From positions 1 to 42,319 of IMG/VR virus record IMGVR_UViG_3300048838_000198: a stretch of DNA of 42,319 nucleotides. The stretch is one strand, 5' to 3'. Position numbers and translations under genes: made by a program. The notes under the pieces are model-generated. The model was not told the DNA's origin and searched no databases. It saw only the letters and a list, made by a program, of their open reading frames with translations. Shown piece by piece: positions 3,941 to 23,603 of this stretch. This DNA is from a virus. How positions within the stretch are numbered: the first letter of the stretch is position 1; each line of letters begins with the position of its first letter.

Positions 3941-5912
3941 AGCATTTAAGCAAGATGAAAGCATAATTACCGAATTGCAGGAGCATTACCAGGCTTGGAC
4001 AGACGATAATAAAAAAAGACAAACTAGAGTTAATGGCTGGAATGATATTACCGATGCCTACTATGGGAAACTTCCGGATAATTGGCCTTTCATGAGCCGG
4101 ACTGTTGACCCTAGATTAAGAACTTCTATTGTTGAGAAGAATGCCCGCCTATTAAATAAGACATTAAGGGGTAAATTAGGCCCAAGAGAGGGCGGAGATG
4201 TGGCTGGATCAATTATTAACAACGCAGTAATTGACTATCAGTGGGATAGAGCCAAGTTTGGTGGCACAATGCAGGAGAAATTAAGCGAATGTGATATAGA
4301 TTCACGCCTTTACCAGTCTAAATTTGTCTATGTGTACTGGAAAACAGATAAAAACAAGAAAAAACAGATCCTTTTTGATGGAAACGAGATGATGCCCCTG
4401 GATATTCGTGATTGTGGATTGGATTACAACGCCAAAAGTATAGATGATGCCAATTGGTTCCAGTGGAGAAGGTGGATTACCTACGAAGATTTAGAAAAGA
4501 TGAACCTTAAGAACTTCTCTGAGCTTAAAAAGAGAATAAAAGATCCTAAATTCATTAACCAAGACAGAAGAGATACTGAATGGCAGTCTAGATTGAAGAA
4601 TATTAAGGGTTTAGAAGATAGAATGGGTCGTGATAAAGCCTTCCCGGTCTTAGAGTTGGTAATTGAGTTTAGAAAAGACGAATTCTACTACTTCTTGCCG
4701 GATATGAACCTTATCTTGGATGATATGGATAACCCCTACGAACACAATATGATTCCTATTAGACAATTAAGATACTTCCCTGTTCAGGATGATAATTTAG
4801 GTGAGTCAGAGGTTGAGCCAGTCCTTCCCCTGTGGAGAGCTATTCAGGCCACCCTTTGTTCATTCATGGATGAGGTTATTATAAAGATGAGACCACCGCT
4901 TAAGGTGGTTGAGGGTCAAGCTAGAGCTGAAACAATAGTATGGAGTCCAGAAGCTCAGTGGTTGGTTGACAATCCGAATGCAATTACTGAAATGGCGGGA
5001 TCAGGAGAAGCGGTAAGATACTTCACTAATTCATATCCAGCCCTTATTTCAGCTTTCAATATCGCCATGGGTGATCTTTCTCAAAATACTTCTAATATAG
5101 ATCCACTGGCTGCCGATAAGACTGCTACTGAGGTTAAAGCAATTCAAAGGCAACAAAATGCTAGGGATGAGAAGAACCAACAAACTCTAGCAGAGTTTAT
5201 TAAGGGTATTGTGATGATGTGGCTTTCCAACAATCGCCAATATCTATTCAGAGATCCTGCAAAGAGCGAACACATCTTAAAGATACTAGGTGAAGAGAAA
5301 TATAGAGAATTCCAACAGCTTGGTATGGATGAGATGATTATGACCGATGAGGCTACTCAACAGATTGCTGACATTGTTACTCAGATGACTGAATCAGGGA
5401 TTGATGTTACTGATGACCAGATAGCCAACATGACCGATGCGGTTAAGATACCCAAGTATCCAGTATTGGAAAACCCCAATGAGAAGCACATTGATAAGGT
5501 TGTTATTAAGCCCAAGATGAAACTTGATGAAACAGGACAACTGGCAGAGTTATCAGTAGTACCACAGGATCTAACTGGAGAGTATGATTACATACCAGAC
5601 GTTAAATCAATGGAGGCCGGAGCTGGTGAGGCTATGTCCTTTGCTAGAAACCAACTAATCAATCAGGTACAATCTCCTACAATGATTAACGCCCTTCAAA
5701 CTCAAGGGTGGATGCCTAAGTTTAAAGAATTATTAGTTGCCTCATTTGAGGAGGAAGGACTTAAAGATGCCCAACGATTCTTTGAAAAAGTACAACCTGG
5801 AGCAGATGGAGCTGCAGAAGGCTCTGGCTTACCTGGCAGGCCTACCGGAGTACAGCCATTACCTAAAGCCCCTACTCAAGAAAAGATTACACAACAAATG
5901 GCTCAATCCTAG
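3927..5912 (+). CDS. Portal protein
   Basis: Portal proteins form the dodecameric ring at the head vertex through which DNA passes and on which TerL and the neck assemble. This 661-residue protein lies directly behind terL and before the scaffold and capsid genes, has the size of P22/podovirus-type portals, and contains the expected mixture: an N-terminal helical part, a beta-rich wing (around residues 120-270), a long helix region with many Gln (about 395-440: KTATEVKAIQRQQNARDEKN) and a Gln/Pro-rich tail. Start ATG 3927 has a good AAGGGAG ribosome-binding site. Identification rests on order, length and this architecture rather than on a catalytic motif. Confidence 0.85.
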   Translation: MKKSKAFKQDESIITELQEHYQAWTDDNKKRQTRVNGWNDITDAYYGKLPDNWPFMSRTVDPRLRTSIVEKNARLLNKTLRGKLGPREGGDVAGSIINNAVIDYQWDRAKFGGTMQEKLSECDIDSRLYQSKFVYVYWKTDKNKKKQILFDGNEMMPLDIRDCGLDYNAKSIDDANWFQWRRWITYEDLEKMNLKNFSELKKRIKDPKFINQDRRDTEWQSRLKNIKGLEDRMGRDKAFPVLELVIEFRKDEFYYFLPDMNLILDDMDNPYEHNMIPIRQLRYFPVQDDNLGESEVEPVLPLWRAIQATLCSFMDEVIIKMRPPLKVVEGQARAETIVWSPEAQWLVDNPNAITEMAGSGEAVRYFTNSYPALISAFNIAMGDLSQNTSNIDPLAADKTATEVKAIQRQQNARDEKNQQTLAEFIKGIVMMWLSNNRQYLFRDPAKSEHILKILGEEKYREFQQLGMDEMIMTDEATQQIADIVTQMTESGIDVTDDQIANMTDAVKIPKYPVLENPNEKHIDKVVIKPKMKLDETGQLAELSVVPQDLTGEYDYIPDVKSMEAGAGEAMSFARNQLINQVQSPTMINALQTQGWMPKFKELLVASFEEEGLKDAQRFFEKVQPGADGAAEGSGLPGRPTGVQPLPKAPTQEKITQQMAQS

Positions 5913-6066
5913 CGACTACAAAACTCAAGAAGAGTTTTTACTAGCCTACAATGAAGAGCTTGGTTATGCTAGGGCGGTGAAAGATATTCTTAAGATGATT
6001 GATGATGCCTCTACTAGGGTAGAAGGTATTGCTAAATCAATGGAGCCAATCAAAAATGTCATATAA
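5767..6066 (+). CDS. Small helical protein overlapping the portal 3' end (99 aa)
   Basis: The ATG at 5767 is selected because it has the ribosome-binding site GAGGAAGGA (5751-5759) at ideal spacing; it therefore overlaps the portal gene by 146 bases in another frame. A shorter start at 5806 is possible. The downstream part beyond the portal (FLLAYNEELGYARAVKDILKMIDD) is a helical, charged protein. Similar small genes occur after portals in many podoviruses, but no function is assigned. Confidence 0.65.
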   Translation: MPNDSLKKYNLEQMELQKALAYLAGLPEYSHYLKPLLKKRLHNKWLNPSDYKTQEEFLLAYNEELGYARAVKDILKMIDDASTRVEGIAKSMEPIKNVI

Positions 6067-6259
6067 GCTTGAACCACTAGACTTTACCGAAGAGATTGAA
6101 GAGTTTGATGCTTTTAATGAGTCTAAGAAAATAGAGTTTAAGAAATGCTCTCACCGATGGGCTAAAATTGAGAACGGAGTTTTACGCTGTGATTGTGGTT
6201 CTTCTTGGGAGGGTGCTGGAATTCAACAGCTAGAAAAAATACTTCACGAACAGTCATAA
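6056..6259 (+). CDS. Small zinc-binding protein (67 aa)
   Basis: The protein begins MSYKLEPLDFTEEIEEFDAF (acidic) and has a C-terminal CSHRW...CDCG cluster that could bind one metal ion. GGAG lies ten bases before the ATG, and the start overlaps the previous gene end by 11 bases. No function recognised. It is the last gene before the promoter at 6262. Confidence 0.6.
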   Translation: MSYKLEPLDFTEEIEEFDAFNESKKIEFKKCSHRWAKIENGVLRCDCGSSWEGAGIQQLEKILHEQS

Positions 6260-6261
6260 AC

Positions 6262-6289
6262 TTGACAACCTCAAAACGATTTATATAGA
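6262..6289 (+). promoter_or_regulatory. Promoter of the scaffold-capsid unit, with 5' stem-loop
   Basis: A perfect TTGACA (6262-6267), 16-base spacer and TATAGA (6284-6289) predict a start near 6296. The leader then carries a six-pair hairpin, TAAGTC (6302-6307) with GACTTA (6317-6322), almost at the RNA 5' end; such hairpins are known to protect mRNA from 5'-end-dependent decay. This would give the scaffold and capsid extra, stable transcripts. Confidence 0.65.
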
Positions 6290-6359
6290 GTGCTATTAAC
6301 CTAAGTCTGATGCTCCGACTTAAAACACGAGCAAATATATTTGAAGGTTGAGGAGTTGT

Positions 6360-7133
6360 ATGCCTGATACAACAAATGGTCAAGATATTGTGGAGGAGAA
6401 ACCACAGGAAGAAGTGACCGCTTCAGAACAAACCCAAGTTGATGAACTTCCAGAAGATGTGAGTGAGAGAACCCGAGAGCAATTTGAAAAACTCAAGGAA
6501 TCAAACAAGCAAATGAAGGAAAGGCTTAATGCCCTAGAAGCAGGGCAACAAGACCAACTTGCAGACATCTATGACAGCCTTAGACCCAAAGGGATGCCTC
6601 AGTTAGATGAGAATTCCGGTAATCTAGATACGCTAATCAAAGATGGCTATGTTGATGAGAATGTTCTTAAACAATCTCTTAATCAACTAACTAAGCAGGC
6701 TCAGGAAGCTCAGAAAAGAGCTGATCTGGCACAGAAGAAAATTCAGGAGATAGAGGAGAATGCTCAAGTCAAAGAAGCTTACAAAGAGTATCCCCAGCTA
6801 AATCCAAAGAATACTGATGTGTTTGATCCTAATTTCTATAAATTGGTCAAGAACGAACTTATTGGTCAAATGATAGAGGGTAAAAAAGACCTTCTAGAAG
6901 CTGCACAAGAAGTTAGTAGAGTTTACAAACCAAACGTAGAAGCTAAGGAGAAGGAGCAGGCAAAGAAAGAAGATTTTGATAAGAAGGAAGAACAGATTCA
7001 AAAACAAAACCCGACCTCAGGTGCAAGGGGGCAAGATCGCTACGCTGAATTAGATCAGAACGATCTAGTAAAAGCCACCATGCGAAACCAGAAGGGTGCT
7101 TTAGCCGAAAGGTTGAGGCGATCTGGATATTAA
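6360..7133 (+). CDS. Capsid scaffolding protein
   Basis: Scaffolds template procapsid assembly and are removed before DNA entry. The 257-residue protein is highly charged and rich in Glu, Lys and Gln, with a long predicted coiled coil (about residues 40-65 and 105-140) and a basic C-terminus (MRNQKGALAERLRRSG) of the sort that docks on the capsid protein. It lies immediately before the capsid gene. The ATG at 6360 has GAGGAG just upstream; the ATG at 6348 lacks one. Confidence 0.8.
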   Translation: MPDTTNGQDIVEEKPQEEVTASEQTQVDELPEDVSERTREQFEKLKESNKQMKERLNALEAGQQDQLADIYDSLRPKGMPQLDENSGNLDTLIKDGYVDENVLKQSLNQLTKQAQEAQKRADLAQKKIQEIEENAQVKEAYKEYPQLNPKNTDVFDPNFYKLVKNELIGQMIEGKKDLLEAAQEVSRVYKPNVEAKEKEQAKKEDFDKKEEQIQKQNPTSGARGQDRYAELDQNDLVKATMRNQKGALAERLRRSGY

Positions 7134-7149
7134 AAATTAGGAGGTCAAT

Positions 7150-8079
7150 ATGGCTTTTGGAAAAGATACCTACAGTGGTTCTTCAGAAATGAGAGAATCA
7201 TTACTTTCTATCTTAAAAGACGTATCGCCAAACGAGGACAACTACTTTGTATCCAATTTAGGATCAGGGCCAGTTGCTACCCAAAGTTTACATGAGTGGA
7301 ACTTGTATTATGATGCAAGACCTACTGCTGTAAGTCCTTCCGTTGAAGGTGCTGCGACTGTTTATGCCGATCTGACCGCTGAAACACGCTCAAACAACTA
7401 CACTGCTATCGTAGAAGAAGCAGTGAGAGTTTCCCGAACCAAAGCATCTATTGCTATGGTAACTGGCGAAGATGCCATGGGTAAAGAAAAAGAACGTGCC
7501 ATGAAGCGACTCAAGGCTAAGATGGAATGGCTAACAATTAACGGATCAGCAGTTGCTGGTTCAAGTGGTGTTGGTCGCAACGCAGCTGGTATTGATGGAA
7601 TGATTTCCACCAATGTCACCGCCAGAGCTTCTGGAACATCCTTTACTGAAATTGAATTGAATGACATTGTTCAAGATTCTTGGAATGCAGTCGGTTCAGA
7701 GTATGTGATGGATATGTTAGTTGCACCAGTAATTATCAAACGCAGAGTAGCCGGTTTCGGAACTAACCTTACTCGCAACATTAACGCTTCTGAGAAACGT
7801 TTAACTAGCGAAGTCAGAGTTTACGATTCTGAAGTTGGTCAAACTGTCATGGTAATTGCTCACAAAGATGTTCGCAAAGCAGCTGGTACATTAACCGTAC
7901 TTGGTGTTCGTGAAGAACTCTTTGAACACTCATTCTTAGTAGACTCTGGTGAGCCTCACTGGGAAGATAGGGCAAAAGATGGAGATAGAGAAAATGGTGT
8001 TTATATCACCGAATTCACTACTGTATCTTATGACCAACGTGCAAGTGCTAAGAGAACTGGATACGCCACAACTCTTTAA
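7150..8079 (+). CDS. Major capsid protein (SU10/DUF5309-like)
   Basis: This 309-residue protein has the best ribosome-binding site of the region (AGGAGG at seven-base spacing), fitting very high expression. Its N-terminal region (SNLGSGPVATQSLHEWNLYYDAR), central AVRVSRTKASIAMVTGED with the following long helix, and C-terminal beta-rich part resemble the SU10/DUF5309 family of HK97-fold capsid proteins. It is preceded by the scaffold and followed by a strong terminator, as expected for the most heavily transcribed gene. Confidence 0.87.
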   Translation: MAFGKDTYSGSSEMRESLLSILKDVSPNEDNYFVSNLGSGPVATQSLHEWNLYYDARPTAVSPSVEGAATVYADLTAETRSNNYTAIVEEAVRVSRTKASIAMVTGEDAMGKEKERAMKRLKAKMEWLTINGSAVAGSSGVGRNAAGIDGMISTNVTARASGTSFTEIELNDIVQDSWNAVGSEYVMDMLVAPVIIKRRVAGFGTNLTRNINASEKRLTSEVRVYDSEVGQTVMVIAHKDVRKAAGTLTVLGVREELFEHSFLVDSGEPHWEDRAKDGDRENGVYITEFTTVSYDQRASAKRTGYATTL

Positions 8080-8151: not shown

Positions 8152-8553
8152 ATGAGATCCATTAAGTTGGATGGGGAAACATACGACATTCCAACACAAC
8201 AAGCACAAGTAATATCAAAGACCATAGCTGAAATGTGGGAGAGATTGGGTAGGCCAGAAACACCTCTATCGGAATCTGGTGAGAAACTAATGAAGATCAT
8301 TATTGCGACTTGGGAAGATACTTTTCCTATTGAATCAAATGATTGGTATGAAGCAAGAAAAGAGTACAAGTTAAATGAGTTTGATATTAAAACTCAGGTG
8401 CATAGGCAAACAGGTAGAAGCCTGGCATCTTACCCATCTTACATTTACAACGTAATGAAGAGGGTATTTCCCCAGTTTAAACTTTCAGACAGAGAAAACG
8501 TGATGAAGTTAGTTAAAAAGTATCCCATCTTCCAAATGGCAAATAAAGTATGA
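8152..8553 (+). CDS. Hypothetical protein opening the glycosyltransferase cassette (133 aa)
   Basis: The protein begins MRSIKLDGETYDIPTQQAQV and is mainly helical. It ends KLVKKYPIFQMANKV and has no recognised domain. No Shine-Dalgarno precedes the ATG, and the -10 box lies six bases upstream, so leaderless translation is predicted. Its stop overlaps the start of the next glycosyltransferase gene by four bases (ATGA), tying it to that cassette. It could be a capsid-associated protein or an accessory of the glycosylation system; nothing decides between these. Confidence 0.7.
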   Translation: MRSIKLDGETYDIPTQQAQVISKTIAEMWERLGRPETPLSESGEKLMKIIIATWEDTFPIESNDWYEARKEYKLNEFDIKTQVHRQTGRSLASYPSYIYNVMKRVFPQFKLSDRENVMKLVKKYPIFQMANKV

Positions 8554-10325
8554 AGATAGCCCTTTGTGCAATCGTTAAAGATGATAGTGAGCTTAATTCT
8601 TTGATGAAGATGACTGGATCAGCTATTGCCCATGTAGATGGGGTATTCATCACTGCAAATGGAAAAGAAACCGATGAGATAGAACTTGCTTGTAAACAAT
8701 ATAAGTGGAATTATTCATATCTCCCATGGCATAAAGACTTCTCAGAACAACGCAACTTTAACTTTTCGCAAGTACCTGCGGATTATGACTATATCTTGTG
8801 GATGGATGCAGATGATGTTCTAGTTGGTGGGGAGAAGTTGAGAGAAGTGGCAAAAAAGTCACTGGAGAATAAGATAGATGTAGTATTTTTCACTTACTGG
8901 TATGGATGTTTATTTGATGGAGAACCATCCGAAGAAAACCTTGTTGATGTTGAGATTGAACAGAATAGGGAGAGGTTAATCAAGCCCGGGTCAATTACCT
9001 GGAAGAAACGCCTACACGAAACACCTATTAAGAATGATGGCTACAACTTTAGAGGGAGTATGCATAAATACTCAGAAGAACAACCAATGGCTGTATTGCA
9101 CCTTGGAGCAGCCAGAAATGTAAGTGAAGATCAGATAAAAGAGAAAATGAAGAGAAATCGTGAGATACTAGAGTTAGAGCTGGCGGATGAGGTGAGGGAG
9201 GGCGAACCCGATCCCAGAACCCAGCTCTATTTAATGAAGATTTACGCAGAGATGGATGAACCCGAGCTTTGGGAAAAGACTATTGAGATGGGAATTCATT
9301 ATCTAGAGAAGTCTGGTTGGGATGAGGAAAGGGCAACCGCCTATATTCTTATGGCTAAGTGCTGGGGAATGTTGGGAGATAACCAGAAACCAATCCACCT
9401 ACTTCATAAGGCGATTGAAGAAGATCCATATAAGCCTAACCAGTATCTTAAATTGGCAGAAGCTTATTACAACGTAGGTCTTTATGACAAAATGTACCAC
9501 TGGCTTGAATATGCCATGCAAATGCCAGAGCCAAAAGTAAACTCTATTGTGGATAACGTATTAGAGAGAAAAATGTTAGCAGCTGAACTACTACTTAAAT
9601 ACTACTTTAACGCTAACAAAAATACCCAGAAAGCATATTTAGCAGCAAAAGAGCTTTACAAACTTAATCCAACTGAAAACAACCACAATAATGTGGAGTA
9701 TTTGCGGGGAATTGCTAATTTGGACACTGCTTGCCGACATACCGATAAACTTTGGGAGTATCTAGAGTCCATTGGTGAAGAAAAAGCCGTTTTAGACACA
9801 TTTCAATCGCTCCCCCAGGCTATAACATCTCAACCTTTTGCCATAAATAAGTACCAAAAGTATGCAAAACCCCGAATTTGGGGCGTGGATGAGATATGCT
9901 ACTTCGCAAACTTTGGAAAAGCTCACTTTGAAAAGTGGGATGCTTCTAATTTAGATACTGGAATTGGTGGAAGTGAAACAGCGGTAATTAGTTTAGCGGA
10001 AGAATGGGTGAAGCGTGGTTGGAAAGTAACTGTTTATGGAGATCCAGTATCTTCCAAAGAAATAAACGGAGTGATTTATCTACCATGGTATCGCTTTAAC
10101 AGAAAAGATAAGTTTAATATATTCATCCAGTGGAGAAGTGGATACTTGGCTGAACACATAAGTAGTAAGAAATTCTATGTAGACCTGCATGACCTCTATC
10201 ACCCCAATGACTTCAAAGACAACATAGAAAAGATAGATAAGATATTCGTTAAGTCTAAGTTTCACCGCAATATAGCCAAGGATATTCCAGATGATAAATT
10301 TATTATAGCGAGTAATGGCTTATGA
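8550..10325 (+). CDS. Glycosyltransferase: GT2 domain, TPR repeats and N-terminal half of a GT4 domain
   Basis: Residues 1-230 form a family-2 glycosyltransferase (GT-A) with FSEQRNF at 64-70 and the metal/nucleotide-sugar motif WMDADD at 84-89. The middle (about 210-430) is a helical tetratricopeptide-like array (for example PIHLLHKAIEEDPYKPNQYL). From about 445 the protein becomes a GT-B fold N-terminal Rossmann domain: GIGGSETAVISLAEEWVKRG near 471, then VDLHDLYHP and IFVKSKFHRN, ending IIASNGL. In intact GT4 enzymes this ending is followed by the second Rossmann domain, which here is encoded at the start of the next gene. The two genes overlap by ATGA. The enzyme should be cytoplasmic; its acceptor (virion protein, DNA or cell-wall glycan) is unknown. 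Confidence 0.85.
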   Translation: MKIALCAIVKDDSELNSLMKMTGSAIAHVDGVFITANGKETDEIELACKQYKWNYSYLPWHKDFSEQRNFNFSQVPADYDYILWMDADDVLVGGEKLREVAKKSLENKIDVVFFTYWYGCLFDGEPSEENLVDVEIEQNRERLIKPGSITWKKRLHETPIKNDGYNFRGSMHKYSEEQPMAVLHLGAARNVSEDQIKEKMKRNREILELELADEVREGEPDPRTQLYLMKIYAEMDEPELWEKTIEMGIHYLEKSGWDEERATAYILMAKCWGMLGDNQKPIHLLHKAIEEDPYKPNQYLKLAEAYYNVGLYDKMYHWLEYAMQMPEPKVNSIVDNVLERKMLAAELLLKYYFNANKNTQKAYLAAKELYKLNPTENNHNNVEYLRGIANLDTACRHTDKLWEYLESIGEEKAVLDTFQSLPQAITSQPFAINKYQKYAKPRIWGVDEICYFANFGKAHFEKWDASNLDTGIGGSETAVISLAEEWVKRGWKVTVYGDPVSSKEINGVIYLPWYRFNRKDKFNIFIQWRSGYLAEHISSKKFYVDLHDLYHPNDFKDNIEKIDKIFVKSKFHRNIAKDIPDDKFIIASNGL

Positions 10326-11710
10326 GAAGAACTAAAGTATTTTGGGGGTCTAGTTACGACAGGGGTCTGCCAGCCCTGTTGTATCTATGGCCTGATGTGT
10401 TGGAGAAGTTTCCCGATGCTGAACTGCATATCTGTTATGGATGGGATCTATTTGTAACAGTCTACAATAACAACTTTGAGAGAATGGGGTGGAAACAATC
10501 AGTGGATGAGTTAATGAACCAGGATGGGATCACTCATCATGGCAGAGTTGGCAAAAAAGAGTTGTCAACAATTAGAAAAGAGTGTGGCATCTGGGCATAT
10601 CCAACAGACTTTCAGGAGATCAACTGTATTACCGCCCTTGAGTGCCAAAGAGATGGATTAGTGCCAGTTACTATGGACTTAGCAGCTTTAAGTGAAACAG
10701 TTGGCTCTGGCTTTAAGATTGAGGGGGACATCAATAATCCTGAAGTAATAGAGGAATATCGCAGGGTATTGCTGAATGTCATGGGTGATGCAAAGTTATG
10801 GAACGAGGAAAGCAAGAAAGCAAGAAAATTCGCTCTAAAGTATGACTGGGATAAAATATCTCCAGTATGGACTACTGAGTTTGTTACTCCTACGTCTAAG
10901 CCAAAAGTAAGCATAATTACTCCAACTAACAGGAATGGATTTTGGAATATCATGGCATATAACCTCTCTGTACAATCCTATCCAATACATGAATGGATAG
11001 TGATAGATGACTCTCCAACTAGACAGTCTAAAAACCCATCAAGAATGAGAGAAGATTATGGACTTAACATAGTTTATACAAAGACTCCTAAAGAATATAA
11101 GGGAAAGTATTCTCTAGTAAGAGCTGACAATATTGGCTGGCAGAGAGCCACTGGAGATTTACTAGTCTGGATACAAGACTTCGTGGTTATACCAGAGAGG
11201 GGTATAGAAGCATTGGTAGATATATATAGGCACAATAAGGATTGCTTAATTGCCCCCACAGACAAGCATTACTCTATTAAGGGCAAATATGACTTTACTA
11301 AGCCGGATGCTTTTATGGGAAACCTAGATGTATTTGGTGACTTGGTATTTGATAACTCTAGAAACCAGTATAAGGGAATGAGAAGAACGGAAAACCCCTA
11401 TGACTTTGAGCTTAACTATGGAGCTATCCCTAGAAAGATTGTTGAGGAGTTAAATGGATTCTGGGAGTTTGGCGATAACTATGGACTTGGGTATGACAAC
11501 ACTGATATTGCCTGGAGAGCCTTGCAAAAAGGACACAAGATTATCATTGATGATACCAACGTTTGCAGTTGTATTAGACACCAGGATTATCTGGACGATG
11601 AGAGGGATAACGCCAATAAAGAAGTATTTGAAAAGATTGTTGCTAAAACACAAAGCGGTGAGCTACCATTAGTAAGAGAGGAAAAGTATGAACATAATAA
11701 CACTTGGTAG
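10322..11710 (+). CDS. Glycosyltransferase: C-terminal half of a GT4 domain fused to a GT2 domain
   Basis: The first 180 residues match the second Rossmann domain of GT4 enzymes: FWGSSYDRGLPALLYLWPDV, then AELHICYGW, THHGRV and the sugar-nucleotide loop region FQEINCITALECQRDGLVPV. From residue about 195 a separate family-2 domain starts (KVSIITPTNR, WIVIDDSP, VWIQDFVV, and the acceptor-site region FGDNYGLGYDNTD). The GT4 N-half is the end of the preceding gene, so both products probably associate, or derive from an ancestral single chain. Its frame is offset by -1 relative to the upstream gene, and no classical slippery heptamer is visible at the join; reinitiation at TTATGAG is the simplest mechanism. 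Confidence 0.85.
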   Translation: MRRTKVFWGSSYDRGLPALLYLWPDVLEKFPDAELHICYGWDLFVTVYNNNFERMGWKQSVDELMNQDGITHHGRVGKKELSTIRKECGIWAYPTDFQEINCITALECQRDGLVPVTMDLAALSETVGSGFKIEGDINNPEVIEEYRRVLLNVMGDAKLWNEESKKARKFALKYDWDKISPVWTTEFVTPTSKPKVSIITPTNRNGFWNIMAYNLSVQSYPIHEWIVIDDSPTRQSKNPSRMREDYGLNIVYTKTPKEYKGKYSLVRADNIGWQRATGDLLVWIQDFVVIPERGIEALVDIYRHNKDCLIAPTDKHYSIKGKYDFTKPDAFMGNLDVFGDLVFDNSRNQYKGMRRTENPYDFELNYGAIPRKIVEELNGFWEFGDNYGLGYDNTDIAWRALQKGHKIIIDDTNVCSCIRHQDYLDDERDNANKEVFEKIVAKTQSGELPLVREEKYEHNNTW

Positions 11711-12116
11711 TTTTGAGATATTTCATAGAGGACATCTAATCTTACTAAAAAAGTGTAGGGAGTTAGCTGATTATCATAAAGTTGTGGTTGGACTAAACAC
11801 TGACCAATTCATTGAAAAGTACAAGGGCAATAGTCCAGTCATAGGATATGAAGAGAGAAAGGCAATTATATTAGAAACTGGTCTGGTAGATGGGGTAATC
11901 CCCAACGATCAATCGGGAGGGAATGCTAGGGATGTTATAAAAGAATCACGTGCAGACCTGATAGTAATTGGAAGTGATTGGGCTAGAAAAGATTATGTTG
12001 GACAACTAGGGATAGATTGGAAATGGCTTGATATAAACAACATTGGAATTGTGTACCTTAATTACACCCACTCTATTTCTACAACAATAATTAAACAGAG
12101 GTTAAATGGACATTAG
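11688..12116 (+). CDS. tagD: TagD-like glycerol-3-phosphate cytidylyltransferase
   Basis: The 142-residue protein has the full signature of the small nucleotidyltransferase family: HRGH at residues 13-16 (HxGH), the arginine in YEERKAI (about 57), and ISTTIIK at 130-136. Length and sequence fit TagD, which makes CDP-glycerol from CTP and glycerol-3-phosphate for teichoic acids; related enzymes activate other sugar or alditol phosphates. Start 11688 has a good GAGAGGAAAAGT ribosome-binding site and overlaps the previous gene by 23 bases. Its place among glycosyltransferases suggests that it supplies an activated building block to the cassette. The precise substrate is not provable here. Confidence 0.85.
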   Translation: MNIITLGSFEIFHRGHLILLKKCRELADYHKVVVGLNTDQFIEKYKGNSPVIGYEERKAIILETGLVDGVIPNDQSGGNARDVIKESRADLIVIGSDWARKDYVGQLGIDWKWLDINNIGIVYLNYTHSISTTIIKQRLNGH

Positions 12117-12651
12117 TTTAATTATCCCCACCTTAAGAATTGGTGACTGGCTAAATAAAGCCATTAAAAGCATGGAGGGGGAGTATGACGAACTAATTAT
12201 CATTGATGACAAGATAGATAACCTTGCTAAAAAGATCAATAAGGGCTTAAGAATGGCTAGTGGCAAGCACTTAGTAGTGGCTAATGATGATGTACAACTA
12301 ACCAGGGGGCATTTATACAATCTCTGCTCTAATGGGGTTTTATCACCTTTTGTAAACGATTCCCCCAACAAACCATTTCATGCCCATTTATTCTGTTTAC
12401 CCAGGAAAATATATGGTGAGATTGGTGGATATTATGAGGGCTATAACGGTTTTTATTATGATGACTCAGACTATTGCATGAAGCTATTGAGAGCAGGATA
12501 TATCCCAAACCTTAATCCTGACGTTAATATCAATCATCCTGAGCCTGCAACTACATTAAAAACCTTCCCACAGAGAAATGATTGGGAGAGGGAAAATCAG
12601 CAATTATTTATTAAAAGGTGGGGAGTAGAGGCCTTAAATATAGTAAGATGA
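12106..12651 (+). CDS. Compact GT2 family glycosyltransferase (181 aa)
   Basis: It shows the GT-A core: MDISLIIPTLRIGDWLNKAI at the start, ELIIIDDK near residue 30, VVANDDVQL near 63 as the DxD-type motif, and YYDDSDYCMKLLRAGY near 123-138 as the acceptor/catalytic region. It is shorter than usual for the family and probably a minimal catalytic domain. The start overlaps the cytidylyltransferase end by 11 bases. Acceptor unknown. Confidence 0.8.
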   Translation: MDISLIIPTLRIGDWLNKAIKSMEGEYDELIIIDDKIDNLAKKINKGLRMASGKHLVVANDDVQLTRGHLYNLCSNGVLSPFVNDSPNKPFHAHLFCLPRKIYGEIGGYYEGYNGFYYDDSDYCMKLLRAGYIPNLNPDVNINHPEPATTLKTFPQRNDWERENQQLFIKRWGVEALNIVR

Positions 12652-13286
12652 AAATAATCTATAGAGTTTCACCATTTGAGCAAGATAATCCCTCACCAAT
12701 TTACTCTAATGAAAAAGAGAAGCTGGTTAAGCTATGCTATGAATCATTTAAGAAGGCTAACTCTGGCTTTCCTGTTTTATTCTTATTAGATAGATGTGAC
12801 TATGACTTCTTTGAGGGTGATGTGGTTCACTTCACTGGTGTTGATAAGAATACTTCGCTCAGAAGAGCCTATGAGCTGGCCAGGGAGTTAGATGATAAGG
12901 TTTTATTTGTTGAAGATGACTACCTATGGAGACCAAACACTATTAAGTTTCTAGAACCAGCTATAGATGAATTTACTCTAGTTTCTCCCTATGACCATCC
13001 AAGCCATTATCTTGAAGATAAGTTTCCCGATGAACACACATTGAAGATATTTCAGAATAACGTATGGAGAAAAGCCTTGTCTAATACTCATACCTTTGGA
13101 GTCCACTCAAATTACTTAAGCGAACACTGGGATATTTTTTATAACTTTGGAGTAAATGACCATGCTATGTTTCAGGCATTACCCAATGATATCTGGCAAC
13201 CTACATATAGCTTTGCAACTCACATGGTCTATGCCTATATGGCTCCGAATATCAATTGGAAAAGTATTTGGACTAAACTGTTGTAA
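12648..13286 (+). CDS. GT-A-like glycosyltransferase (212 aa)
   Basis: The start at 12648 forms an ATGA overlap with the preceding stop and is preferred to the in-frame ATG at 12618. KVLFVEDDYLW (near residue 85-95) is a DxD-type motif preceded by a helix of the right kind, and the C-terminal half (SPYDHPSHYLEDKFPDEH, then AMFQALPNDIWQ) fits a small transferase with an unusual acceptor region. Family assignment is weaker than for its neighbours. It is the last gene of the cassette. Confidence 0.6.
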   Translation: MKIIYRVSPFEQDNPSPIYSNEKEKLVKLCYESFKKANSGFPVLFLLDRCDYDFFEGDVVHFTGVDKNTSLRRAYELARELDDKVLFVEDDYLWRPNTIKFLEPAIDEFTLVSPYDHPSHYLEDKFPDEHTLKIFQNNVWRKALSNTHTFGVHSNYLSEHWDIFYNFGVNDHAMFQALPNDIWQPTYSFATHMVYAYMAPNINWKSIWTKLL

Positions 13287-13328: not shown

Positions 13329-13967
13329 ATGCGAACATTAAACGATATTTTAATTGCTGTAAATGCGTATGTTGATCTTGAAGCCTCAGCTCCTACCGGA
13401 GATGAATTAGTATTTAGGGCTAATTTAGCCAATCAAGCGGTATGGGATGCTTCAGGAGTTTCACAATTTAGCGAATTTGATGAGGTTTATGAAGTTGATC
13501 CTGCCACCAACGCAACAATCCCGCTTCCATCAAACTTTAGAGAATTCAAAACCAATCCCCGCCAGAATGTAAATGGTACTTGGGTAGAATACCCAGAGAT
13601 ACTTCCAGAGCAAAGATATAATCATGGACCTTCAGAGAAGTATTGTTATGTGTTGGGTAATCCAGCACAAGGGTTTAGTGCCATCTTTAATGGGCTTGAA
13701 GCCAATATGACGCTATCCTTCACCAATCAGAGGTTTCCATCAGGACTACTTACTTTATCAGACGTGTGTGAGTTATCTGATCCTACTTATGTAGTTAGTC
13801 AAACCGAATCATATATTCTTCAATCTAGAGGAGATGACCGATTCCCTTATGTGGACTCTATTGCTAGTACCAAGCTTAAAAACCTGGTTGGAAGAGATAT
13901 GAAAACTCCCGGTGGTGGCTATAGAAAGACACCATCAAGCTTCAATAATCCATTAAATAGAGGTTAA
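13329..13967 (+). CDS. Head-to-tail adaptor (tail tubular protein A-like)
   Basis: The 212-residue protein follows a strong AGGAGG site. Its N-terminus (MRTLNDILIAVNAYVDLEAS, then FRANLANQAVWDASG) is a helical segment like that of T7 gp11/P22 gp4-type adaptors, which bind beneath the portal, followed by a beta-rich part. It is adjacent to the nozzle-like gene, the usual podovirus order. Assignment is by order, length and general pattern. Confidence 0.65.
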   Translation: MRTLNDILIAVNAYVDLEASAPTGDELVFRANLANQAVWDASGVSQFSEFDEVYEVDPATNATIPLPSNFREFKTNPRQNVNGTWVEYPEILPEQRYNHGPSEKYCYVLGNPAQGFSAIFNGLEANMTLSFTNQRFPSGLLTLSDVCELSDPTYVVSQTESYILQSRGDDRFPYVDSIASTKLKNLVGRDMKTPGGGYRKTPSSFNNPLNRG

Positions 13968-19364: not shown

Positions 19365-22300
19365 ATGAGCATATTTGATGACATAAGATCCATAGGACAA
19401 GTAGCAATAAAAGATCCTAAACGATTTGGTACTGCTTTAGGCAATACTATAAAGATACCCCTAGAGAATAAAAGACTGGCTCAAGAGCAAAAAACAGCTC
19501 AACTACTTGCTGATACTGGTAGATTAAGGCAGTCAAGAGGGGCTGATGGATCAAATTACTTTAATTCTGCACAGAGAATAACTCAGAATGCTGCTAATCA
19601 ACAAATGACCCTGGCTGACTTAGCAAAGCAAACTCGCAGGGATGCTGTTGGTGGTGGAGTTGGAACAGCTCTAACGATCTTAGGGGCGGGGAATATGCCT
19701 ACCTCAACCGCAATTAGGGGAGTTAATAACTTTAGGAATGTCGGATTAGGATTAAACACGCTTGGAAGAATGGGATCTGTTGGGGCTATTGGAACAGGTA
19801 TAAACACTGGTATTAGCATGGCTATGAATCCTAAGGCAAATGTAAAAGACGTAGTAAGACAATCAGCAATTCAATCTTTTGGAAATGCTCCTAAATATGC
19901 AGGAGTTAATTCCCTCACCAATCCCCTTATCTCAAAATACATGAATGGAGTTAATCCAACTTCATTAAAAGCCAGAATGCTCGCTGGTGGCGGCAGTAAT
20001 GCCTTAGCAAACGTAGCAGAAGATGAACTCTTAAAATATACCGATGAGGGAAGGTTTATGAACCCCTCGGAAACCTTGGGGAGTGCTGGCACTGGATTTG
20101 TGTTTGGTGCTGCTACTCAGGTGAAGCCAACCTTACAGGCAAAGAAGGCGGCTGATGAGTCAATGAACAACATTTTATCCACTCTTAGAAAATCTACTCC
20201 TGGTGAAATCCAAAAAGCTAATGAAATGGCAAAGATACATTATGAAACCCATAAGACTGCACTTTTCCCAAACACTAAGAAGTATTCAGCTGATAATGCT
20301 AATGCCATCGGAAGAATCATTGGTGAATATGAAACAAATGGAAGAATAAGTAAAGACACCAGAAGAGAGCTAGAAGAGATAATATCAGGACATATTAAGA
20401 AAGCTAATCTAACCAAGATGAGTGATGATTTTCTTGTAAGAGAAGCATTTTATCAAGTTAATAGTCAAATTAAGCAGGGCGGGTTTATTAAACCCGATGA
20501 ATTCTTTGGCTCTAAAACGAATCAACCTCAGCTAAAAACAGAAGAGCCAAAAATAAAAGCCGAAGAACAACCAAACATAATTAAAACTAGAAACCAAGCA
20601 ATTAAGGAAAGACTTGTTGAACTTGGGGCAGATCCAAAGAAGTTAAAGGTATTAGACCAAAATATAAAGGAAAACAAGGCTATTCTTGAAAAGACCATAT
20701 ATGGATCGGAAACTCCAGAAAAAACCGCTTTTGGTGGTACTAAAGAGGGTGCAGGACTTGTTACTGATAAGCTGAGAGCTGTTCAAGAAGATATCAGCAC
20801 AAGTGTTGGAAAACTTAATGAAAGCCCTAGTCCGGTGGTAAGGAATGTCGGCAGATTACTACAAGGATTTGCTGGCGGACTTGGCAAGACCCAGGAAGAA
20901 GTTGGTGCTAGGAATGCCTATCTTGGTGGATTAGAAGAATCAAAACAGGTTGGCGGAGACTTTGAAAAATATGTTCAAGAAACACTGGGTAAGGATGAAA
21001 AATCACTGAATAGGGTATGGGCTGTCTTAGATCCAGAAAGGGGCAAGGGTAAATACTCAGAATTATCTGATGCCGAAAAGGGAGTAGCAGACTTTGCAAG
21101 AACAGTAAATGACTTTATAAACGATCTTAACTATAAAAATGGTTTCATATCTAAAGAAAACTGGGAAGCTAATAAGGGTGGCAAGTATATTGCTAGAGCC
21201 TATGAAGAGTTTGACTACCCACCAGAGGTAACAGACTTCTTAAGAATATCCAAGGGTAAGTATGACTTGAACGCTTTTTACAAGAGAACTCTGGGTGTAG
21301 ACGTGCCAGAAGATTTAACTCAGATTAAAGATCCAGGGTATTTGATTGGTAAAAGACTCCAACAAACAATGTTTAATGACTCTCTTAAAAAGATGACAAC
21401 CTGGATGAACAGCACAGACATGGTTTCAACCAAGCCTAAAGATGGGTATGTCAAGATTGCTGAACATAAGATGTATGGTGATTTATCTGGTAAGTGGGTT
21501 AGAAAAGATACTTTAGAAGATATTAAGGGCTTCTTTTACACCAGTGACACAGCTCAGAAAATGTACGATATTGTTAGCTTATACGATGGAAACATCATCA
21601 GAAGAAGCTATAAGAAGTTATTCACAGTAATGAATCCCGCAGTGAGAGTAGCAAACAAAACAAGTAATTATGTATTTGCATGGCTAACTGGGATTGACCC
21701 AGTAACCTACAAGAAGAATCTATCTTTTGCTAATGATGAGGTTAAAGGTCAAGGTCAACTATATCGCAGGATGTTGCGGGATGGTCTATTAAGATCAGAT
21801 ATAACCAAAGCTGACATAACTAGGATGGCTACTGAATTGAAGGCGGGGATAGATGATCCTGGTATCCTTAAGAAATTTGATGACATGATGGTTAGTGGCT
21901 ATGGCAAGACTGATGATATGGCTAAGATATCAGCCATGAAAACATTTTTAGATCGTGGCTATTCATACGATGAAGCCGCCAGAAGAGTTACCAATGGCTT
22001 CCAGAACTATCACATGGTTGGTTGGTTATATGATGTTGGAGCAAAGATACCAGTCTTAGGAAACCCATTTGTTAGATTTAAGGGTGATCTTAATAGAATC
22101 CTAAAGAATGGAATGATTGAACATCCAATAAGAACAATGTCTACAGTTATGGCAGTTAAATTACTAACAGACCTAACTAGTAGGGCTAGTGGTGAAACAC
22201 CAGAAGATAAACAGACTAGAGAGGGAAGGTTTGGAAGTCCACATATCCCCTTCACCAATGTGTCTTTAGCGGTTCAAACCCCATGGGGAGAAGTAAACGC

Positions 22301-23603
22301 AGCTAGATTATTAGGCCCTTATGGAACTAACTATGCGGGCGACAACAACATGTCTGATCTTGCTGACATGATGCCTATTAAGAACCCATTTGATAAGAAA
22401 AGTTACGCCTCTGCTCCAGATGTTGGGCCACTAGTTTCTTTGGCTACCGATTCTGACTTTAGGGGAAAGAGTATTAAAGATCCAAACGTGGGATGGAATG
22501 GTGTATCTAATTTAACTCCAGAAGAACAGAGAATGAACCGGGCTAAGTATCTGCAAAGGTCTTATTCGCCACCAGTATTAAATAGTGTTGAAGATGTTGC
22601 TTCCGCCATGAAGGGTGAACCAAACTTCTATGGACAGGTTAAAACACCAACCCAAGCGGCATTAAGACTGTATCCCGGTATTAAGGTAGAGCAATTTAAT
22701 GCACCAGAGGCTCAAGCTCAAAGAGCTAGGGATGATAAGTATGCTCAGAATAAAAACGATCAACTTCAAAGACAAATAACCTCTATCAAGAAGGATGTTG
22801 TTGCTGGTGAATTAGATCCCAATGTTGGTCAGAAAAGAATTGCTTATCTACAGAGTCAATTAAAAACAGTTGGTAGTCAAAATGTAGATCAAGTTAATGC
22901 TGGTGGATCTTTGGTAATACCATCTGATAAAGAGGGTCAGAAAATACTTAAAGATGTTATTAAAGATAAGATAGATACTGGAAAAGCTTCGGATCAAGAA
23001 CTCCAGTATTACTACTTCTATAAGGGTTTAACTTTACCCAACTCTAATCGCTATGAAAAAGCAATAAAAGACGGTGAGATATGGGCTGGCATAAATAACA
23101 TCAAGAAGAATGAAAACCTAACCCCAGAACAACAAGCTAGAATGGTTGGAATGGCTGCTAGAGAACTAGGAATAACCCCGGCTGACGTTGAGTATAAGGA
23201 TATAGCAAAGAAGTCTAATGATATTAAAACACTCCATATCCTAGATGAGTTTGACAAGGTTAAAACTCCCGAACAGAGAATGGATATATTGATTAAGGGA
23301 AGAAAGAATGTGGATGGATCTATTCTAGTATCTAATGGAGTAATTGATAACTTGGTTGATGATGGATACATCACTTATGCTGAAGGACAACTGTTAAAGA
23401 AGCTAGAAGTTGGAATTGACGGAAAAGTAAAGAAAACTGGTAGAATTGGTGGAACAGCAAGTAAGGCTAAATCTCTGAAAACTATTAAATCTAATATGGG
23501 AATAAAAGAGTTTAAGTCTAAAAAGATAACCGGAGGAAACATGGGAATGCCAACTCTATCTAGTATTAGAACTAACAAAATTAGTGCGGGGAAACTATTA
23601 TGA
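19365..23603 (+). CDS. Large internal virion/DNA-ejection protein (1412 aa)
   Basis: This is the longest gene. Residues 1-220 are Gly/Ala-rich with possible membrane-active helices (GGGVGTALTILGAGNMPTST). Residues about 340-500 are charged and helical. Residues about 560-1000 contain a region (KLFTVMNPAVRVANKTSNYV, then FVRFKGDLNRILKNGMIEHP) similar in form to the large polyvalent protein-associated domains of phage ejection proteins. The C-terminal third is a long soluble helical region. No lysozyme or transglycosylase motif was found in it. The predicted role is to leave the head with the DNA and form the trans-envelope channel. Confidence 0.6.
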   Translation: MSIFDDIRSIGQVAIKDPKRFGTALGNTIKIPLENKRLAQEQKTAQLLADTGRLRQSRGADGSNYFNSAQRITQNAANQQMTLADLAKQTRRDAVGGGVGTALTILGAGNMPTSTAIRGVNNFRNVGLGLNTLGRMGSVGAIGTGINTGISMAMNPKANVKDVVRQSAIQSFGNAPKYAGVNSLTNPLISKYMNGVNPTSLKARMLAGGGSNALANVAEDELLKYTDEGRFMNPSETLGSAGTGFVFGAATQVKPTLQAKKAADESMNNILSTLRKSTPGEIQKANEMAKIHYETHKTALFPNTKKYSADNANAIGRIIGEYETNGRISKDTRRELEEIISGHIKKANLTKMSDDFLVREAFYQVNSQIKQGGFIKPDEFFGSKTNQPQLKTEEPKIKAEEQPNIIKTRNQAIKERLVELGADPKKLKVLDQNIKENKAILEKTIYGSETPEKTAFGGTKEGAGLVTDKLRAVQEDISTSVGKLNESPSPVVRNVGRLLQGFAGGLGKTQEEVGARNAYLGGLEESKQVGGDFEKYVQETLGKDEKSLNRVWAVLDPERGKGKYSELSDAEKGVADFARTVNDFINDLNYKNGFISKENWEANKGGKYIARAYEEFDYPPEVTDFLRISKGKYDLNAFYKRTLGVDVPEDLTQIKDPGYLIGKRLQQTMFNDSLKKMTTWMNSTDMVSTKPKDGYVKIAEHKMYGDLSGKWVRKDTLEDIKGFFYTSDTAQKMYDIVSLYDGNIIRRSYKKLFTVMNPAVRVANKTSNYVFAWLTGIDPVTYKKNLSFANDEVKGQGQLYRRMLRDGLLRSDITKADITRMATELKAGIDDPGILKKFDDMMVSGYGKTDDMAKISAMKTFLDRGYSYDEAARRVTNGFQNYHMVGWLYDVGAKIPVLGNPFVRFKGDLNRILKNGMIEHPIRTMSTVMAVKLLTDLTSRASGETPEDKQTREGRFGSPHIPFTNVSLAVQTPWGEVNAARLLGPYGTNYAGDNNMSDLADMMPIKNPFDKKSYASAPDVGPLVSLATDSDFRGKSIKDPNVGWNGVSNLTPEEQRMNRAKYLQRSYSPPVLNSVEDVASAMKGEPNFYGQVKTPTQAALRLYPGIKVEQFNAPEAQAQRARDDKYAQNKNDQLQRQITSIKKDVVAGELDPNVGQKRIAYLQSQLKTVGSQNVDQVNAGGSLVIPSDKEGQKILKDVIKDKIDTGKASDQELQYYYFYKGLTLPNSNRYEKAIKDGEIWAGINNIKKNENLTPEQQARMVGMAARELGITPADVEYKDIAKKSNDIKTLHILDEFDKVKTPEQRMDILIKGRKNVDGSILVSNGVIDNLVDDGYITYAEGQLLKKLEVGIDGKVKKTGRIGGTASKAKSLKTIKSNMGIKEFKSKKITGGNMGMPTLSSIRTNKISAGKLL

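Follow-up and report, generated by a model that had tools for sequence, protein, structure and literature searches.

A phage GT4 glycosyltransferase probably kept as two chains, cut at the hinge between its lobes

The window analysed here is the viral record IMGVR_UViG_3300048838_000198 over its whole length of 42,319 bases. Its + strand carries two consecutive open reading frames (ORFs), A (8550-10325, 591 residues) and B (10322-11710, 462 residues), which share four bases, since the ATGA at 10322-10325 contains both the start codon of B and the stop codon of A. A is composed of a GT2 domain (about residues 1-230), TPR-like repeats (about residues 230-430) and the N-terminal Rossmann half of a GT4 glycosyltransferase (N-lobe, about residues 431-591) with a GGSE motif, and its C-terminus reads ASNGL. 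An alignment with 18 relatives placed this N-lobe in the last 161 residues of A (9840-10322, + strand). B begins with the donor-binding half of a GT4 enzyme (C-lobe, about residues 1-185; 10322-10876 on the + strand by the C-lobe alignment), in which SSYDRGL and the EX7E motif EINCITALE are found, and continues with a second GT2 domain (about residues 190-445). A first-pass annotation of this DNA had described the same domain order, and the ORFs, the Pfam matches and the hidden Markov models (HMMs) of relatives all agreed with it. With a probability of roughly 0.8, we consider A and B to be the two halves of one retaining GT-B glycosyltransferase of family GT4, which is kept as separate chains in a large phage lineage.

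The Pfam scores of the GT4 lobes were weak. In A, a GT2 domain (PF00535, 4e-6), TPR below the cut-off and the first 68 profile positions of Glyco_transf_4 (PF13439, 6e-4, below the curated cut-off) were detected. In B, the Glycos_transf_1 profile (PF00534) was matched from position 29 almost to its last position (1.2e-3, below the cut-off), and the second GT2 domain was also detected (PF00535, 5e-5). A sequence search of the PDB returned no match for B and almost only designed TPR proteins for A. The weak Pfam scores were settled by profile HMMs from related loci, which detected the N-lobe and the C-lobe together in a single uninterrupted ORF in 66 loci. The AlphaFold2 model of one such relative (L059) was a complete GT-B enzyme of GT4 type, with a predicted local distance difference test score (pLDDT) of 96.2 and a predicted template modelling score of 0.92. 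Its best structural neighbours were MshA (Z 28.6) and PimA (Z 28.5), and BshA scored Z 26-27. The family shares with these GT4 enzymes the fold of the unbroken relative (Z about 26-29), the glycine-rich N-lobe loop and the first glutamate of EX7E, whereas all three are single chains and the sequence identity is only 12-17%. The N-lobe of A and the C-lobe of B can be aligned to L059. When B was predicted alone, without A, the model had a pLDDT of 88.9 and was confident across the C-lobe and the GT2 domain. The first glutamate of EX7E is invariant in the C-lobe alignment, and the window has the full motif.

Relatives were collected by C-lobe alignment searches. After identical copies had been removed, 134 loci with both lobes were obtained, and the genome collection contributed only six relatives, some of them on contigs that are possibly phage. 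Sixty-eight of the 134 loci were split at the same inter-lobe hinge, and the other 66 carried one unbroken GT4 (as GT2-TPR-GT4 in L003, L018 and others). When A was the only query, 14 relatives were found; A terminated at the same position in all of them (NG[IVL] and a few residues), and a C-lobe ORF came next wherever the contig continued past A. The stop codon of A lies 1-4 residues past NG in 64 of the 68 split loci, and B typically starts 9-11 residues before SSYDRG. In unbroken relatives, the spacing from NGx to the SS of SSxDRG is mostly 19-21 residues. The cut is therefore within the inter-lobe linker, which runs between strand 155-157 and strand 174-180 in the L059 model. This confirmed the position between the lobes given by the first-pass annotation, and the comparison of split with unbroken loci showed in addition that the cut costs about ten residues of the linker.

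The fusion state of the second GT2 domain also differs among relatives: it is a separate gene in L018 and is fused to the C-lobe in most of the window's clade. GT2, TPR, full GT4 and second GT2 lie in one ORF in L089 (4222-7482) and L146 (1087 and 1056 residues), so in these two loci the domains of A and B are linked in one chain.

The cut is conserved. Trees were calculated with FastTree on 130 loci and in a quick IQ-TREE run on 50 loci; neither orients the changes. In the 130-locus tree, the window's clade comprised 47 loci, all of them split (support 1.0), and seven changes between the split and unbroken states were needed, versus a mean of 44 in shuffles. Six changes were needed in the 50-locus tree, and at least four of them were forced by well-supported branches alone. 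The cut is old and maintained by selection, and it was gained or lost on several occasions. According to the first-pass annotation, conserved splitting among relatives would speak for function, and the relatives came out on that side, with half of the family and the whole 47-locus clade split.

An indel introduced by assembly or sequencing, or a pseudogene of recent origin, is a conceivable source of such a cut, and single loci do resemble errors: small apparent indels, which are probably sequencing errors, are seen at the C-lobe start of L016 and in the N-lobe of L028. For the cut itself, the chance of this explanation is negligible. The same cut is found in 68 loci from many samples, with varying frames and with intact genes between the halves, both halves are under purifying selection (see below), and all 47 members of the window's clade are split although they come from different contigs.

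The spacing of the two halves was then compared across the 68 split loci. Relative to the stop codon of A, the nearest ATG of B was at -4 (ATGA) in 25 loci. Nine loci had it at -11, and in 28 the distance exceeded 30 nt. In the 38 short or overlapping junctions, the frame of B relative to A was +2 in 27, +1 in 10 and 0 in 1. The overlap of A and B in different frames is what programmed ribosomal frameshifting or recoding would need in order to join them into one chain, in which case the split would be only apparent, and a rare frameshift had been offered in the first-pass annotation. However, the frame differs between relatives (+2 in some, +1 in others), no common slippery site was recognized by eye, and many relatives have whole genes between the halves, which no frameshift could pass. 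We therefore regard frameshifting as highly improbable.

No Shine-Dalgarno-like match over 3 nt was found upstream of B in the window, while such motifs precede several of its non-overlapping genes (at 7150, the capsid gene, with AGGAGGT, and at 13329 and 18135). For this reason, translation of B is likely to occur by termination-reinitiation at the ATGA, and both chains would then appear together. Two other candidates were rejected. For a group I intron at the junction, the window and 12 loci were compared with Rfam, and no match reached the gathering threshold; the ATGA junctions are too tight for any intron. Trans-splicing by a split intein was discarded because A ends with ASNGL and B starts with MRRTKVFWGSSYDRGL, with nothing extra at either end, and no Pfam intein domain was detected in A or B.

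The ratio of nonsynonymous to synonymous substitution rates (dN/dS) was low in both halves of split pairs (about 0.02-0.2 where dS was unsaturated) and similar to that in unbroken pairs; the exception among the split pairs was the recombinant pair L012/L040. These ratios indicate that both halves are under purifying selection. The GGSE loop was present in 66 of the 68 split N-lobes. The glutamate motif was counted by a regular expression in 61 of the 68 split C-lobes, which is a lower bound, as intein-bearing and variant members were missed. In L011 (8333-9721) and L084 (6001-7395), an intein (PF14890, about 1e-23 and 1e-22, respectively) with an HNH_3 domain is located exactly inside the EX7E motif of the split C-lobe, between EIN and CITAL. 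As a rule, inteins are found at the best-conserved positions of proteins that are required.

These data bear on whether the two chains work separately. Both could be GT2 enzymes, with a lobe that is vestigial in A and a donor lobe that is vestigial or regulatory in B, without any GT4 site; the GT2 domain in each chain could act alone, and B is confidently predicted to fold alone. Against this, the GT4 motifs are conserved in both halves after the split, and C-lobes that stand alone, with no GT2 domain, have been retained as well (30 loci, class SPLIT_C). Moreover, the inteins interrupt the C-lobe motif, a place at which imprecise excision would have consequences, and dN/dS is as low as in the unbroken relatives. 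We consider separate working improbable.

How a two-chain GT4 enzyme would assemble and act, on what substrate, and with what part of reinitiation and endonucleases in its making, we infer as follows. A would contribute its GT2 domain, the TPR-like arm and the acceptor-side lobe, and B would contribute the donor-side lobe and the second GT2 domain. By docking, A and B would form the cleft between the lobes and thereby one GT-B active site, and the lost linker would be dispensable since the lobes pack against each other. The first-pass reading of two coupled polypeptides, which would need to assemble through their GT4 lobes, is supported, and the split is conserved. The complex would have up to three sugar-transfer sites and would most likely build a glycan on an acceptor of the virion or the host surface during particle production. 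Building of a virion glycan is the simplest role, with a host-surface target being possible.

Several points weigh against the two-chain enzyme. The loss of the inter-lobe linker could weaken the assembly of A and B, and their association and activity are themselves inferred. The second glutamate of EX7E is lysine in several unbroken relatives, which makes the catalytic details uncertain. The relatives are nearly all uncultured, and the trees do not fix whether breakage or re-fusion was the direction of change.

A single ancient split with several later re-fusions would leave the two-chain enzyme itself the same. The trees are unoriented and split lineages surround some unbroken ones, as this history would have it, and the published account of ALG13/14-EpsE/F is one split that was followed by several re-fusions (PMC8993221). 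For the present family we find it unlikely and favour repeated breakage. The unbroken L082 and L066, which are nested among split loci, retain an ordinary full linker of the outgroup type (NGIDLDSF...IKRN), which would hardly be expected after re-fusion. Likewise, L150 lies inside an unbroken clade, beside the unbroken L092, and has an HNH gene in its cut. The window's own clade is split throughout.

The halves are more than 30 nt apart in 28 of the 68 split loci and often flank a whole gene. An HNH homing endonuclease ORF was found between them in 12 of the 68 (L004, L011, L012, L033, L040, L062, L085, L090, L108, L125, L150 and L239), and none is present at the ATGA junction of the window. 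By Pfam, these ORFs are mostly HNH, HNH_2 or HNH_3, some with NUMOD3; the one in L011 was assigned by its likeness to the other junction HNH ORFs, and the one in L108 resembles a remnant. Twelve of the 21 such endonuclease ORFs in split loci sit in the GT4 junction, which is a rough enrichment because the HMMs were built from junction copies. With these HMMs, 24 copies were found elsewhere, where the count is perhaps low.

Other cargo was also observed in the junction. L054 has a weak match to a Dam-like methyltransferase, L091 has an S-adenosylmethionine methyltransferase, and L019 (MW202497, a circular phage record) has a complete GroEL-type chaperonin gene (4419-5984) between the halves. 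Small ORFs of no known kind occupy the junctions of L006, L024, L039, L055/L057 and L086. In L063, an 869-residue ORF (5383-7989) carries an FkbM methyltransferase in frame before the GT4 C-lobe and two more methyltransferase domains behind it, and the C-lobe is fused to methyltransferases in L077-L079 as well. Comparison of empty and filled pairs (L023/L024, L230/L086 and L071/L054) showed that the insert lies exactly between the stop codon of A and the start codon of B. In L012, L033 and L011, the start of B is present twice, broken before the endonuclease gene and complete after it. L012 and L040 carry different HNH genes in the same junction, and their N-lobes are 77% identical while their C-lobes are 99% identical, as expected from recombination breaking at the junction. 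No convincing direct repeats flanking the junction inserts were found. In L062, the end of the N-lobe (KLPEEKVFITSNGL) recurs as a second copy at the end of the endonuclease ORF (5354-6007).

The hinge is probably a repeated point of breakage and insertion, where HNH homing endonuclease genes preferentially enter and other genes follow. The endonucleases probably caused some of the breaks, e.g. those in L150 and L062, and the freed C-lobe has acquired new partners such as GT2 and methyltransferases. In its strongest form, the hinge would be a standing break point, where endonucleases cut and enter again and again, the enzyme persists as a complex of two chains and the donor lobe is shuffled onto GT2, FkbM-type and other methyltransferases. 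We put this forward tentatively, at somewhat less than even odds. If it is true, phages gain new modular complexes for sugar modification through the action of selfish genes.

Two kinds of known systems come close to this enzyme. In T4-like phages, HNH genes split nrdA (mobE in Aeh1) and gene 60 (mobA in T4), and gene 43 is split in phages 25 and 44RR, with a seg-like gene within the phage 25 copy; activity has been reported for the split enzymes of Aeh1 and phage 25, and an overlap of start and stop codons has been described for such genes (PMC2988022). As with Aeh1 nrdA, one phage enzyme is here made as two chains, with a homing endonuclease gene in the cut of some members. In contrast to it, a GT4 glycosyltransferase is affected, with the cut at the lobe hinge, a whole clade is split and mostly lacks the endonuclease, several state changes occurred in one family, and the second half gained new fusion partners. 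Fractured genes with split inteins and a free-standing homing endonuclease gene between the halves were reportedly described by Dassa and colleagues in 2009; the present case differs from them in that neither A nor B carries an intein half at its end and there is no protein trans-splicing.

The second kind is the bipartite GT-B enzymes ALG13/ALG14 and the bacterial and archaeal EpsE/EpsF (PMC8993221). Their two GT-B lobes are made as separate chains and the active site lies between these, as we propose for A and B, and in both cases splitting and fusion occur within one family. However, ALG13/14 is GT1/GT28-like and membrane-tied, whereas the present enzyme is a GT4 in a phage capsid operon, with each half fused to GT2. 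The structural neighbours listed for L059 are GT4 and similar retaining enzymes. By analogy, the enzyme would work like ALG13/14-EpsE/F, and we do not file it as a member.

The first-pass annotation had called a bipartite phage GT4 a new arrangement. In the open-access literature, which leaves most subscription journals outside, we found no split phage GT4 and no homing endonucleases gathered at a GT4 hinge, and to that extent the claim stands; it does not extend to bipartite GT-B enzymes (PMC8993221) or endonuclease-split phage enzymes (PMC2988022) as such, which are known. The present case unites the two in one GT4. With it, the few enzymes that are maintained in two parts by phages come to include a glycosyltransferase. 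One family offers an unusually rich natural series of unbroken genes, split genes with an overlap, with an endonuclease, with other cargo and with a new fusion partner, which makes gene breakage by endonucleases with retained function directly testable. For protein engineering, the family is a source of GT4 enzymes that are already divided into two parts.

A is usually preceded by an SU10-like major capsid protein gene (7150-8079, + strand). Its homologue was found in 118 of 135 loci, nearly always directly upstream of A, in split and unbroken loci alike. The recurrent placement of A after the capsid gene suggests that glycans are built while virions form. In the window, a small gene (8152-8553, + strand) lies between the capsid gene and A and has an ATGA overlap with A. 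Farther downstream, at 19365-23603, there is an ORF of 1412 residues without a PHROG match. Directly after B, a cytidylyltransferase-like gene (11688-12116, + strand) overlaps the end of B by 23 nt and belongs to the same sugar cassette as A and B. It is the first of the overlapping sugar genes at 11688-13286, which also include a GT2-like gene, together with a protein of no known kind.

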